Assembly: GCF_025758695.1 (NCBI RefSeq)
Contig: NZ_JANJQP010000001.1
Span: forward strand, 558,001-622,000
Direction of reading: 5' to 3'
Length of the DNA: 64,000 nt
Origin: Oenococcus kitaharae
Lineage (GTDB): Bacteria; Bacillota; Bacilli; Lactobacillales; Lactobacillaceae
Below, piece after piece: positions 29,076 through 36,460 of this stretch. The position numbers and the translations under genes are program-made. The notes beneath the pieces are model-generated. The model was not told where the DNA came from. It ran no database searches and worked only from the letters and a program-made list of their open reading frames with translations. The first letter of the stretch is position 1. Each line of letters begins with the position of its first letter.

Positions 29076-29990
29076 TCATTGAAACAGTTTTGTCTCTTCA
29101 ATAATCGACTGGGCACTCTGCTTTAATTTGGCCGTCTCTTCAGGATTTAAAGGCAGATAAACCTCACTGACGATCCCTTTTCGGCCAATAATCGCCGGCA
29201 AAGAGATGTAAATACCGAATTTTTGATTGTAACGCGACACTACCACTTCATAATGGCTATCAGTCAGCACCGACTCAATCAAACTGGCAGCAGCGCTTGC
29301 AACAGCAATATTTGTATAGCCCTTGCCTTGGACAACTTGAAAAGCATCTTTTTTTGTTGCCAGCGCTAAATCCTTAACTTCGATACCGCGTTCTTGGGCA
29401 ATTTCTAGAATAGGCCTATCCAAGATCCGAATTGATGACCAGGCCGGAAACTGAGAGTCGCCATGTTCGCCAACGACAAAGCCCGTGACTGAACGCGGGT
29501 CCAGATCAAAGCGCTGGCCGATTTCTCGCTTTAATCGCGATGTATCCAAATAAGTCCCGCTGCCAAATACCTGTTCTTTGGGCAGGCCAAGTTCTCTTTG
29601 ATAGACGCCTGTAATCACATCGACGGGATTTGTAATAGTTAAGAAAACACCGTGAAAATGGGCTGCACGAAGTTGGGCAGCCATGGACTTGATTTGTTTC
29701 AGATTAAAAGCCAGCTCGGCGAAACGATCGCTGCTTTGGGCAGTCAGATGAACATTTCCAAAAGTGCTGACAACGATATCGGCGTCGCCAAGATCTGCAT
29801 AATCGCCAGCGATAATCTTTGTATGCGACGGAAGAAAGGATTGCGCGTCCAAAAAATCCAGCAGCTCTGCCTGCAAATGCAGCTTATTAATGTCCAACAA
29901 GACAAGCTCGTCGACAAGTCCTCGGTCAGTGATAATGTGAGCCAGCGTCGATCCAACGTGCCCCATTCCAATGATTCCAATTTTGCGCAT
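29076..29990 (-). CDS. L-lactate/2-hydroxyisocaproate dehydrogenase family protein (paralogue 1)
   Basis: 304 residues. NAD-binding loop IGMGHVGSTLAH, substrate-pocket region NPVDVITGVYQ, LDTSRLKREIG, and catalytic GEHGDSQFPAW with the active-site His. The SSDRFAEL stretch resembles hydroxyisocaproate dehydrogenase more than classical LDH. It probably reduces branched or other 2-oxo acids with NADH. It is a diverged paralogue of the enzyme at 63070. The ribosome site AAGGGG and a TATAAT -10 lie upstream, in a gap shared with the divergent gene 30108. Confidence 0.85.
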   Translation of the reverse strand: MRKIGIIGMGHVGSTLAHIITDRGLVDELVLLDINKLHLQAELLDFLDAQSFLPSHTKIIAGDYADLGDADIVVSTFGNVHLTAQSSDRFAELAFNLKQIKSMAAQLRAAHFHGVFLTITNPVDVITGVYQRELGLPKEQVFGSGTYLDTSRLKREIGQRFDLDPRSVTGFVVGEHGDSQFPAWSSIRILDRPILEIAQERGIEVKDLALATKKDAFQVVQGKGYTNIAVASAAASLIESVLTDSHYEVVVSRYNQKFGIYISLPAIIGRKGIVSEVYLPLNPEETAKLKQSAQSIIEETKLFQ

Positions 29991-33061: not shown

Positions 33062-33235
33062 CAGTACAGCTCCTCCGCAAAGCATAGTTATTTTTTTTAA
33101 CAGTTAATCTCATTTTAACCGTTCAGAAGACGAGTTTGGAAAATTTTTGTAATATTACATTTTGATGACAAAAATCAAATACCTTGACTTTTAATTCAGC
33201 TCCTAGTAACCTAAGTAACAACTCAAAGAGAGTAC

Positions 33236-33313
33236 ATGCGAGATAATAGTTCACAAATGAAGATGAGTGCATCCATTATTTTGGTCAGCGTCGTGTTGTT
33301 GATTACACAGTGA
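33236..33313 (+). CDS. leader peptide rich in Ile, Leu and Val (ilvL-like)
   Basis: 25 codons, M-R-D-N-S-S-Q-M-K-M-S-A-S-I-I-L-V-S-V-V-L-L-I-T-Q, ATG at 33236 and TGA at 33311. Codons 14-23 contain nine Ile/Leu/Val codons out of ten, like the control stretches of E. coli ilvL and ivbL. It sits 115 nt before the start codon of an operon ending in the branched-chain aminotransferase, with a terminator between. The ribosome site is weak (AAAGAGAG). Expected role: the ribosome's progress through these codons senses branched-chain aminoacyl-tRNA and sets termination. An alternative is a hydrophobic small protein with its own function. Confidence 0.75.
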   Translation: MRDNSSQMKMSASIILVSVVLLITQ

Positions 33314-33371
33314 CGACTGATCATTTTGTCAGCCGTCAAAAGATGGCTGGCTGGCATGGTTGAAGATTTCA

Positions 33372-33410
33372 AAACCGTTCTAGTTAGTTGCTTACTAGAG
33401 CGGTTTTTTT
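33372..33410 (+). terminator. attenuator terminator upstream of the EIIC-like gene
   Basis: A 12-bp stem, AAACCGTTCTAG / CTAGAGCGGTTT with one G-T pair, 11-nt loop, then TTTTTTT. The AAGGAGG ribosome site of the next gene starts 8 nt later. A smaller hairpin (33356-33378, ATGGTTGAA with TTC..AACCGT) overlaps its 5' arm and could compete with it. Confidence 0.88.
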
Positions 33411-33428
33411 ATTACTTAAGGAGGAAAT

Positions 33429-34700
33429 ATGACAGCAAACAACGTTCCAAAAAGCCAGGCTGATTTTTTTGATCAAGACCCCGGTTCCATGACGCCTGAA
33501 CAACGCAGCGAGGCTTATTCGCAAGCGATGTCGGCGGCAGCTAAATTCAAAAACGACCGAGCTCAGACTGAAGAGCTGCGGCCAGGTTCAGGTCCTTTGA
33601 CCCGCCCAGAGAAAAAAATGAAAATGTCTGACTGGGTCTATACAGTCAGTCAAGGAATCTCCAATGCGGTTTTGGTTATTCTTGGTATTTCCATTCTTTT
33701 GAATACAGCTGGCAATTTGCTTCACTGGGCGCCTATGCAGATGGTTGGCGTCTTAGGCCAGCATCTGCTAGCACCTGCTATTGGTGCCGGTATCGCCATT
33801 CAGCTTCGATCAACGACCTTAACAACTTTTTCAGCTATGATCGCAGCCACAGTTGGCGCCAACTCTATGTACTTTACAAGCGGCGCAATCAAAGCTGCTA
33901 CAACAGCTACTGGCTGGGTTGCACCTCAATTAGCTGGCGCCACGATCATGACTGTCGGCCAACCGATTTCCGCCGTGATTGCCGGTCTTGCAGCTGCCCT
34001 ATTAGGCAAGTGGATGACCGGTAAGACACCGCTTGATATGTTTATCGTACCTTTCTGTGCCACTTTTGTTGGTTCGGTCGTTGGCCTTGGTGCCGCAACT
34101 GTAACGACGCCATTCTTAAATTGGGTATCAAAAGGACTGGCAGACACAATGTCAGTCAACCCGATTCTTGGCGCGGCCGTCGTCTCATTTGCTTGGTTCT
34201 GGTTCTTAATGACACCCGCTTCTTCGGCTGCATTAGCCGTAGCAGTCGGGCTTGATCCAATGTCTGCCGGTGCGGCCTTAATCGGTTGCTGTGCCGCATT
34301 TTCCGGCTATACAGCAATGAGTTTTACACAAAATAATTCCGGTGCTAATATTGCCCAAGGGCTCGTAACACCGAAAGTCCAGTTTCCAAACATCATCAAA
34401 TCACCGTTAACAGCGGTTGGACCAATGATCTCAGCTGTTGTGATGGCTATATTTGCAGTAACAGTTGGCGGTTTTAGAGTACCAGCTGCCCTTGGCGGAC
34501 TTGGTTTCTCATCATTTACTGCACCGTTAAATATTCTGTCAATGCCTAAAACATCCGGCTTCTCAAATGGCTGGGGCGGTTTAGCAGTCATGCTTTTCTT
34601 CGGTTTAGTTGGCCCGGCAGTAATTTCTTGGGTTTGGTATCAGTTCTTAAAGCGCGTTGGCAAGACACGCGAAAATGATTTACACCTTGATGTTGTTTGA
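33429..34700 (+). CDS. stand-alone PTS EIIC-like membrane protein (PTS_EIIC_2 type)
   Basis: 423 residues. A charged cytoplasmic N-terminus (about 1-65) is followed by roughly ten membrane segments rich in Gly, Ala and Ser. VYTVSQGISNAVLVILGISILLNTAG, GAGIAIQLRSTTLTTFSAMIAATVGAN and FTQNNSGANIAQGLVTPKVQFPNI match the PTS_EIIC_2 family as I remember it. No EIIA or EIIB domain, and none nearby, so sugar phosphorylation is doubtful. Its mRNA starts with the branched-chain leader and probably continues into bcaT, so a role in moving a branched-chain amino or keto acid is a reasonable inference, not shown. AAGGAGG precedes the ATG. Confidence 0.8.
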   Translation: MTANNVPKSQADFFDQDPGSMTPEQRSEAYSQAMSAAAKFKNDRAQTEELRPGSGPLTRPEKKMKMSDWVYTVSQGISNAVLVILGISILLNTAGNLLHWAPMQMVGVLGQHLLAPAIGAGIAIQLRSTTLTTFSAMIAATVGANSMYFTSGAIKAATTATGWVAPQLAGATIMTVGQPISAVIAGLAAALLGKWMTGKTPLDMFIVPFCATFVGSVVGLGAATVTTPFLNWVSKGLADTMSVNPILGAAVVSFAWFWFLMTPASSAALAVAVGLDPMSAGAALIGCCAAFSGYTAMSFTQNNSGANIAQGLVTPKVQFPNIIKSPLTAVGPMISAVVMAIFAVTVGGFRVPAALGGLGFSSFTAPLNILSMPKTSGFSNGWGGLAVMLFFGLVGPAVISWVWYQFLKRVGKTRENDLHLDVV

Positions 34701-34757
34701 TTAATAATTTGTTTCACATATCAATGATTCATGTTAGAAAAGGAGAGATTTACAAAA

Positions 34758-35792
34758 ATGACAAAAGCAAAAGCGACAGATTTTGATTGGCCGAATATTG
34801 GTTTTAATTATCATGATTTGCCATATAGTTTTCATGCAGAATTTAAGGATGGCCATTGGGATGAAGGCCATTTGACTGAAGATTCGACAATCACAATGTC
34901 TGAAGCTGCCAATGTCCTCCATTATGGACAGGAAGCTTTTGAAGGTTTGAAGGCCTATCGTCGCAAAGATGGCGGTGTTAACTTGTTCAGGCCGGATATG
35001 AATGCCAAACGGATGCATAAATCAGCTGAGCGCCTTCTGATGGAACCGTTCCCAGAGGATCGATTTGTTCAAGCCGTTAAAGAAGTTGTCAAAGCCAATC
35101 AAGACTTTGTTCCGCCATACGGTTCTGGCGCAACATTGTATGTCCGTCCGTTTTTGATTGGTACCGGTGAAGTTATCGGTGTCCATCCGGCAAATCAGTT
35201 CCAATTCCATATTCTCGTAACGCCAGTCGGCCCTTACTATAAAGGCGGCATGCAGCCAACTGCTTACGTCACTAGCCCTTATGACCGTGCCGCTCATGGT
35301 GGAACTGGCCAGTCAAAAGTTTCAGGAAACTATGCTTCTAGTCTGCTCCCTGGCTCCATCGCTCATAACGAAGGATTTTCTGATGTTGTTTACCTGGATC
35401 CTCGCTTGCATGAAAACATCGAAGAATTAGGTGGCGCCAACTTCTTTGGTATCACGAAAGATGGCAAGTTCAAAACACCGAAGTCGCCTTCTATTCTGCC
35501 TTCAATCACGAAGAAATCTTTGCTGAAATTGGCTAGTGATTTCGGAATGGAACCCGAAGAAACCACAATCAGCATTTATGATTTGGATCAGTTCTCAGAG
35601 GCCGGCGCCATGGGTACAGCTGCGGTTATCTCGCCTGTTGGTTCAATTACGCATAACGGCAACAAACATGTCTTTTACAGCGAGACCAAAGTTGGTCCAT
35701 ACACACAAAAACTTTATGATCGCCTTAGTGGTATCCAAGATGGCGACATCAAGGGCCCTGACGGCTGGCAAGTTGATGTGCCTTTGGATTAA
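34758..35792 (+). CDS. ilvE: branched-chain amino acid aminotransferase
   Basis: 344 residues from the ATG at 34758, chosen for GGAGAG about 10 nt before; the in-frame ATG at 34731 has none. It is a class IV PLP transaminase interconverting Leu, Ile and Val with their 2-oxo acids. Motifs are NVLHYGQEAFEGLKAY, TLYVRPFLIGTGEVIGVHPA, the PLP lysine in GGTGQSKVSGNYA (about K187), and the phosphate-binding SEAGAMGTAAVISPVGSI. No terminator is seen in the 57 nt after the EIIC-like gene, so both are placed under the attenuator. The products can feed the hydroxyisocaproate dehydrogenases at 29076 and 63070. Confidence 0.96.
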   Translation: MTKAKATDFDWPNIGFNYHDLPYSFHAEFKDGHWDEGHLTEDSTITMSEAANVLHYGQEAFEGLKAYRRKDGGVNLFRPDMNAKRMHKSAERLLMEPFPEDRFVQAVKEVVKANQDFVPPYGSGATLYVRPFLIGTGEVIGVHPANQFQFHILVTPVGPYYKGGMQPTAYVTSPYDRAAHGGTGQSKVSGNYASSLLPGSIAHNEGFSDVVYLDPRLHENIEELGGANFFGITKDGKFKTPKSPSILPSITKKSLLKLASDFGMEPEETTISIYDLDQFSEAGAMGTAAVISPVGSITHNGNKHVFYSETKVGPYTQKLYDRLSGIQDGDIKGPDGWQVDVPLD

Positions 35793-35827: not shown

Positions 35828-35853
35828 AAATCGTTTCTAAATTGAAACGATTT
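35828..35853 (+). terminator. terminator after ilvE
   Basis: Perfect 10-bp stem AAATCGTTTC / GAAACGATTT with a TAAATT loop, followed by TATTTTAT. It ends the EIIC-ilvE unit. Confidence 0.88.
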
Positions 35854-35860
35854 TATTTTA

Positions 35861-35907
35861 TATTTTGTTTAGTTTTTATTGACAAAAACTAAACAAAATA
35901 ATATCAT
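35861..35907 (+). promoter_or_regulatory. promoter overlapped by a 17-bp perfect inverted repeat (MarR operator candidate)
   Basis: TATTTTGTTTAGTTTTT (35861-35877) is repeated exactly inverted at 35884-35900 around ATTGAC. A perfect -35 TTGACA (35879-35884) sits at its centre, and TATCAT (35902-35907) is the -10 at 17-nt spacing. A dimeric repressor bound here would block the -35. The next gene is a MarR regulator, so autorepression is the natural reading. Confidence 0.85.
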
Positions 35908-35935: not shown

Positions 35936-36460
35936 ATGTCAGAAGTAACAAATGAACTCATGCGAACAATTGGTGGTTTAGCTAAGAACCCAAATTTTTA
36001 TCTCATGGTCGGGTCGCGTCATGACAGCCGGCGCAGCCACCACCGCGGCCAAGCTCGGTTAATGCGTTTATTGGACAAATATGACGGCCTCTCGGTCGGC
36101 GAAATCGCCGAGATATTAGATGTGCGTCCCAGTTCCGTGACAGGACTGGTTGATAAGCTGGCAGATAATGGCTTAGTTGATCGGATCCCCGACGAGCGCG
36201 ACAAACGCATCACACTGATTAAGTTAACTAAAAAGGGCCACGACTTTTTACAAAGCAAAAAAGACGAGGCCGATGATCTGAGTGAAGAAGTTTTTGCTGG
36301 TTTGACCGACGAAGAACAAGCAACACTGCTGCACTTATTAAAACGTGTTTCCAAAAACTTAAGTGATATGGATTTTGGAGACTACATCAGCCAAATGGTT
36401 AATGATTCGATTGGCCGCCACTTTAGATTCGATGATGGCGATATTCATATCAACCTATAA
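35936..36460 (+). CDS. MarR-family transcriptional regulator
   Basis: 174 residues from the ATG at 35936; AGAAAGGAAAATGAT precedes it. An in-frame ATG at 35879 lies inside the promoter and is rejected. The winged helix is clear: LSVGEIAEILDVRPSSVTGLVDKLADNGLVDRIPDERDKRITLIKLTKKG (about 60-110), flanked by dimerisation helices. The N-terminus has an unusual RHDSRRSHHRGQ stretch. It is followed 24 nt later by the His-rich membrane protein, probably in the same operon. Ligand and targets are unknown. Confidence 0.93.
   Translation: MSEVTNELMRTIGGLAKNPNFYLMVGSRHDSRRSHHRGQARLMRLLDKYDGLSVGEIAEILDVRPSSVTGLVDKLADNGLVDRIPDERDKRITLIKLTKKGHDFLQSKKDEADDLSEEVFAGLTDEEQATLLHLLKRVSKNLSDMDFGDYISQMVNDSIGRHFRFDDGDIHINL

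Follow-up and report, generated by a model that had tools for sequence, protein, structure and literature searches.

An EIIC-type permease and ilvE behind a predicted branched-chain leader-peptide attenuator in Oenococcus kitaharae: a candidate importer of 2-oxo acids

Gene content of the locus

We have analyzed a stretch of 64,000 nucleotides (hereafter the window) from Oenococcus kitaharae, a relative of a wine bacterium. Between positions 33184 and 35853 a promoter, a leader peptide, an attenuator, a permease gene, ilvE and a terminator follow each other in what appears to be a single unit. The permease (33429-34700, + strand, 423 amino acids) has a single-domain match in Pfam, to PF13303 "PTS_EIIC_2" (E value 6.5e-66, 223 bits for a cut-off of 28.9), and matched no NCBIfam model. 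The next gene (34758-35792, +) was recognized by TIGR01123 with 405.7 bits (cut-off 250.05), which identifies it as a branched-chain aminotransferase, IlvE type II, and it likewise matched NF009897 well above the cut-off. An earlier note on this DNA had described an EIIC-like permease and ilvE behind a shared leader, and both matches, together with the conserved attenuator presented below, confirm it.

The probable promoter (TTGACT, 17 nt, TAACCT; 33184-33212, +) was read off the sequence and is absent from the picks of a consensus scan. At the same position, two of the other Oenococcus loci (L003 and L004 in our numbering) have TTGACA..TAATCT, closer to the consensus than the window. The gap between permease and ilvE is 57 nt, and a simple scan listed no terminator-like site in it; a terminator-like hairpin that would close the unit was found by the same scan at 35828-35853 (+). 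The arrangement suggests that the two genes are co-transcribed. A promoter-like match (10/12) was also picked where the permease gene ends (34679-34708), so that a second promoter for ilvE is possible. Around the permease the window encodes a phosphatase-like protein, IlvE and a MarR-type regulator; the last of these (35936-36460, +) comes directly after the unit, and its own promoter-like site, a strong one, is located at 35879-35907 (11/12).

The leader and its alternative structures

The leader ORF (33236-33313, +), with a AAAGAGAG site upstream, would code for a peptide of 25 residues (MRDNSSQMKMSASIILVSVVLLITQ) that ends in ..SIILVSVVLLITQ, with a run of branched-chain codons near its end. 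Its richest stretch of 10 residues contains 9 Ile, Leu or Val. As a comparison set we took 736 upstream regions of other genes from the same loci: 121 of them had a small ORF with at least 7 such residues, and the value of 9 was reached by a single small ORF. Downstream lies an intrinsic terminator, hairpin plus T-run (33372-33410, +, -17.4 kcal/mol), preceded by a putative antiterminator element (33347-33362, +) that can pair with the 5' arm of the terminator; the duplex in the window has -13.3 kcal/mol, equalled by 0.6% of the shuffles. The fold of the whole region 33200-33428 was estimated at -75.6 kcal/mol against -50.7 (sd 4.2) for shuffled sequences (z -6). Leader peptide and terminator are also present in the Oenococcus genomes that we read (L002, L003, L004 and L061), and the same leader architecture was found before the permease in Oenococcus, Leuconostoc, Weissella, Periweissella, Fructilactobacillus and others.

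From 24 leaders located, 19 belonging to several genera entered the covariation alignment, once L065 and L077 (near copies) and L078, L087 and L092 (in which the scripted choice of terminator was apparently wrong) had been excluded. In the terminator, 94.6% of the cells were paired and double changes affected 10 of the 11 pairs; none of 500 shuffles reached this, and slid versions gave at most 56%. The antiterminator helix, which joins the upstream element to the terminator's 5' arm, was paired in 91.4% of the cells over the 19 loci (slid, at most 52%). Covariation was weaker here than in the terminator, double changes affecting 2 of the 8 pairs, and taken locus by locus the duplex was better than shuffles at the 5% level in only 5 of 21 loci. 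A hairpin located upstream, by which the antiterminator would be sequestered, was paired in 69.6% of the cells (slid, at most 42%).

One arm can thus pair both ways, making terminator and antiterminator mutually exclusive, and the short ORF is, in its predicted translation, rich in codons for the amino acids presumed to be regulated. Judged from the sequence, the leader has the layout of a ribosome-mediated (leader-peptide) attenuator, one that would respond to shortage of branched-chain amino acids (BCAA). The proposal of a branched-chain-sensing leader holds in this form, an Ile/Leu/Val-rich leader peptide kept in relatives, and not in that of a T-box. Rfam reported no family at the gathering score in the whole window, RF00230 included, nor any T-box ahead of the permease in 22 more loci, where the sole T-box (in L110) lies on the opposite strand; T-box control of the permease was rejected for this lack of RF00230 matches.

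Linkage to ilvE and probable control of the permease in other genomes

The earlier note had proposed to look in other genomes for association of this family with ilvE or with attenuator leaders, and both were found. Among 80 named homologue loci, ilvE was adjacent to the permease in 28, with the permease first in 16 and ilvE first in 12, and the linkage occurs in three gene arrangements. Weissella (L063-L065, L068 and L069) has the leader between ilvE and the permease. In Liquorilactobacillus, ilvE and permease are followed by an L-LDH/HicDH-type gene, and a BCAA leader precedes ilvE in 4 of 7 loci. An ORF of the window, likely the LDH/MDH-like gene at 29076-29990 (-), shares its sequence cluster (15) with this L-LDH/HicDH-type gene.

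A leader was also found before the permease with no ilvE in the fetched flanks (L073, L074, L077, L078, L087, L092, L117, L127 and L138; L074 is Fructilactobacillus lindneri). These cases, and those of Weissella in which the leader follows ilvE, argue that the permease itself is apparently under BCAA control. Judged by eye, a real BCAA leader precedes the permease in 26 of the 80 named loci. The script filter had flagged 38 permease genes, to be compared with the 121 of 736 other genes given above, and several of these were due to overlap with the upstream gene at its 3' end.

Linkage to ilvE reaches other families of the order and class (L021, L247 and L270). We have also checked 151 Lactobacillaceae genomes for ilvE and the permease of the window clade: 49 had both, 10 the permease only, 37 ilvE only and 55 neither (p 1.4e-7, a statistic that ignores kinship). 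Where both were present, they were at most 1 kb apart in 19 of the 49. The 10 genomes, of 59 with the permease, that had no ilvE at the threshold used count against import on behalf of IlvE. In Apilactobacillus and a related genome (L130, L133, L134 and L135) the window-clade permease is a tandem duplicate and adjoins a cyclopropane fatty acid synthase-like gene.

A predicted EIIC fold without PTS partners nearby

The AlphaFold2 model of the permease (pLDDT 87.7, pTM 0.78) matched glucose-superfamily PTS EIIC chains well above other folds. Residues 62-421 gave Z scores of 19.8 (3.9 A over 300 residues) and 19.7 against PtsG models; the values were 16.7 for MalT (5.0 A over 318) and 9.5 for ChbC. 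The Pfam name is therefore correct as to fold. By sequence, the permease had no match among PDB chains at E 1 or better.

The partners that a sugar PTS would need were not seen nearby, as the earlier note had claimed for the window. Neither EIIA nor EIIB is fused to the permease or located beside it in the window, and none appeared in 34 small same-strand neighbour representatives of PF13303 homologues or among the 25 families listed, of 109, for 85 neighbour representatives, although a partner encoded elsewhere in the genome is possible. In the sugar site, a His and a Glu have a role known from MalT, ChbC and PtsG. The three sugar EIICs of the same genome have H338 and E401-P402 invariant, whereas 250 permease homologues showed no acidic or His column conserved at 60% or more. 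This loss of sugar-site residues was argued from column conservation rather than from a residue-level alignment, because comparing the profile of the permease family with those of two or three of these sugar EIICs gave no meaningful match (probability 0.4 and 5).

That we are dealing with an ordinary sugar EIIC served by EIIA and EIIB from elsewhere, or with a PfoR-type regulator, standing before ilvE by accident, is accordingly a reading to which we give very little credit. It has in its favour the Pfam name and the Z scores to MalT and the better PtsG model, but the neighbourhoods examined contain no PTS partner, the invariant His and Glu have no counterpart among the homologues, and both the repeated linkage to ilvE and 2-oxo-acid enzymes and the BCAA attenuator speak against it. 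Nor were the homologues linked to sugar PTS genes in those neighbourhoods. The suspicion that the annotation misleads is supported as regards PTS and sugar function and not as regards the fold, which is predicted to be that of an EIIC.

The conserved polar columns of the 250 homologues include Ser265, Asn302, Lys316 and Asn321. Conserved Lys316, Asn302 and Ser265, with no acidic or His column, would suit an anionic substrate. Residues 314-316 (TPK) fall at a helix break (model helices 304-313 and 315-324), and it is plausible from the model that Lys316, beside this break, contacts a carboxylate.

Neighbourhoods of the PF13303 family

The strongest clue to the substrate is, in our opinion, found in the gene neighbours of the whole family. 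We counted as 2-oxo-acid enzymes IlvE, class I aminotransferases, 2-hydroxyacid dehydrogenases, PanE-type reductases, amino-acid dehydrogenases and the bkd complex, by means of mechanical ORFs and HMMs made from the neighbour clusters themselves. Such an enzyme was the immediate neighbour of 113 of the 249 distinct PF13303 genes (among 279 hits), against 3 of 114 control genes from the same loci (p 2e-19). The figure was 3 of 20 for BrnQ genes and 0 of 7 for the sugar EIIC loci of the same genome, two of these seven being pieces of one gene region. By sets, the neighbour was present in 29 of 83 genes of the named relatives, 59 of 82 of the Lactobacillaceae and 16 of 66 of the class. The remaining 136 of the 249 genes had no such enzyme beside them, which counts against a 2-oxo acid as substrate.

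The enzyme varies with the clade, taken from a FastTree tree whose long branches meet and which we have used for broad clades only. In the window clade it is IlvE; in a second clade there are D-2-hydroxyacid dehydrogenase, PanE/ApbA reductase, amino-acid dehydrogenase and bkd operons; in a third, class I aminotransferase appears with D-2-hydroxyacid dehydrogenase. These enzymes have 2-oxo acids in common as their substrate class. In the window genome, each of the three PF13303 copies adjoins one of them: ilvE in the window, a class I aminotransferase 44 nt upstream (L177) and a D-2-hydroxyacid dehydrogenase 45 nt downstream (L178). The last is closest to D-lactate dehydrogenases, and therefore pyruvate or lactate would suit the L178 member equally.

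Several individual loci deserve mention. In other families of the order, the PF13303 gene is in or beside a bkd-type operon with E1, E2 and lipoamide dehydrogenase (L231, 4989-6032 and neighbours; L233; L234). An ELFV-type amino-acid dehydrogenase adjoins it in L235, L151, L152, L154 and L161, that of L235 being nearest to the tryptophan dehydrogenase ScyB, under its cut-off. A deep Bacilli clade (L250-L263), nearly devoid of the 2-oxo link, adjoins M42 aminopeptidase, thioredoxin and DUF1444 instead, and likewise counts against the 2-oxo acid reading.

The dehydrogenases bring in the possibility that the permease carries 2-hydroxy acids or exchanges them for 2-oxo acids; export of 2-hydroxyisocaproate or phenyllactate, for instance, would then serve as a redox sink. 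D-2-hydroxyacid dehydrogenase adjoins many homologues, and the L-LDH/HicDH-type gene after ilvE and permease in Liquorilactobacillus fits too. Against it, the gene of the window clade is apparently induced by BCAA shortage, when losing BCAA carbon would do harm, and hydroxy acids are not touched by the IlvE, bkd and amino-acid dehydrogenase partners; we regard this as improbable.

BCAA synthesis and BrnQ

No ilvC, ilvD or leuA was found in the window genome (98.5% complete), which keeps ilvE. Branched-chain 2-oxo acids should thus not be made there by the usual route, and an aminotransferase induced by BCAA shortage makes sense in such a cell if they arrive from outside. Among the 19 genomes with permease and ilvE adjacent, ilvC was not found in 17; its presence in the other 2, and that of ilvD in 3, counts against this view.

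The main rival is that the permease imports the BCAA themselves, ilvE being in the operon since both serve BCAA homeostasis. Starvation control is usual for BCAA importers, and in Oenococcus brnQ has the same kind of leader, with a BCAA-rich small ORF upstream in all five genes read; the genomes with permease and leader and no ilvE also fit. However, BrnQ is already found in 14 of the 19 adjacency genomes, that of the window included, so that the amino acids have a carrier of their own. Besides, the bkd, PanE and hydroxyacid dehydrogenase neighbours of the family have a 2-oxo acid, not an amino acid, as their common metabolite, and BrnQ genes have such neighbours only in the 3 of 20 cases mentioned. 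We consider amino acid import rather unlikely. In L283, L284, L285, L286 and L290, the Ile/Val/Leu-rich short ORF (such as MYQNKTLVSQIVISLVIII) is located ~200-270 nt upstream of brnQ, and in Oenococcus it possibly belongs to a second BCAA attenuator. This suggests a BCAA salvage regulon in Oenococcus, brnQ and permease-ilvE, under leader-peptide control.

A proposed role in BCAA salvage

We infer transport by the permease, its substrate and its direction from sequence and gene context. Apparent induction by BCAA shortage together with ilvE indicates that keto acids, and not a sugar, are probably carried, and induction by starvation rather favours import. The explanation that we prefer, and hold to be somewhat probable, is a PTS-independent importer of branched-chain 2-oxo acids that supplies IlvE. 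Permease and ilvE would form a two-gene unit for BCAA salvage. With too little charged tRNA for Ile, Leu or Val, the ribosome would stall in the branched-chain codons near the leader end, the antiterminator would replace the terminator and both genes would be transcribed. The permease, working on an EIIC-type fold without EIIA or EIIB, would bring in ketoisocaproate, ketoisovalerate and ketomethylvalerate, to be aminated by IlvE to Leu, Val and Ile. A cell without ilvC, ilvD and leuA would thereby have a second route to BCAA alongside BrnQ. The earlier note had argued for a substrate of the branched-chain type (amino, keto or hydroxy acid) and against a sugar, which the linkage to ilvE and 2-oxo-acid enzymes and the permease's own leader support; the 2-oxo acid as the metabolite common to the neighbour enzymes and the direction of import are what our analysis would add.

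A wider proposal, for which we see the case as evenly balanced, is that PF13303 as a whole, a large family, carries 2-oxo acids on the EIIC fold independently of the PTS, and that in auxotrophic lactic acid bacteria one of its clades, under leader-peptide attenuation, imports the external keto acids that IlvE converts to BCAA. If true, a widespread transporter family would have to be renamed, lactic acid bacteria would gain a candidate gene for the uptake or release of keto acids, a step that bears on the flavour and hydroxy acids of fermented food, and the membrane domain of sugar PTS would be reusable for anions without phosphorylation.

Comparison with known systems

Searches that left subscription journals mostly outside found no literature linking PTS_EIIC_2 to branched-chain compounds, none joining leader-peptide attenuation, branched-chain and Leuconostoc, and none that by its title dealt with a keto-acid transporter. 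PF13303 is presumably linked to COG3641 "PfoR". For the family by name these searches gave only PMC6952197, which reports Pfam hit counts and nothing further on it. The gene pfoR was formerly considered a toxin regulator, a role later contradicted according to PMC4448169, and the family neighbourhoods described here suggest 2-oxo acids instead.

With PtsG, MalT and ChbC the permease shares the predicted fold of the glucose-superfamily EIICs, and it differs from them in that there is no EIIA or EIIB seen beside it, no conserved Glu or His column and no PDB match by sequence. The leader resembles attenuators of the trp/ilv type, among them the Leu-rich one of the Staphylococcus aureus ilv-leu operon (described in PMC5794164), in its short codon-rich ORF and its exclusive antiterminator and terminator. 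Unlike them, it has no Rfam match and precedes a putative permease-ilvE salvage unit in organisms mostly lacking the biosynthetic pathway. The BrnQ/LIVCS importer (PF05525) has in Oenococcus, like the permease, a BCAA-rich small ORF upstream, but is a separate protein family and moves the amino acids.
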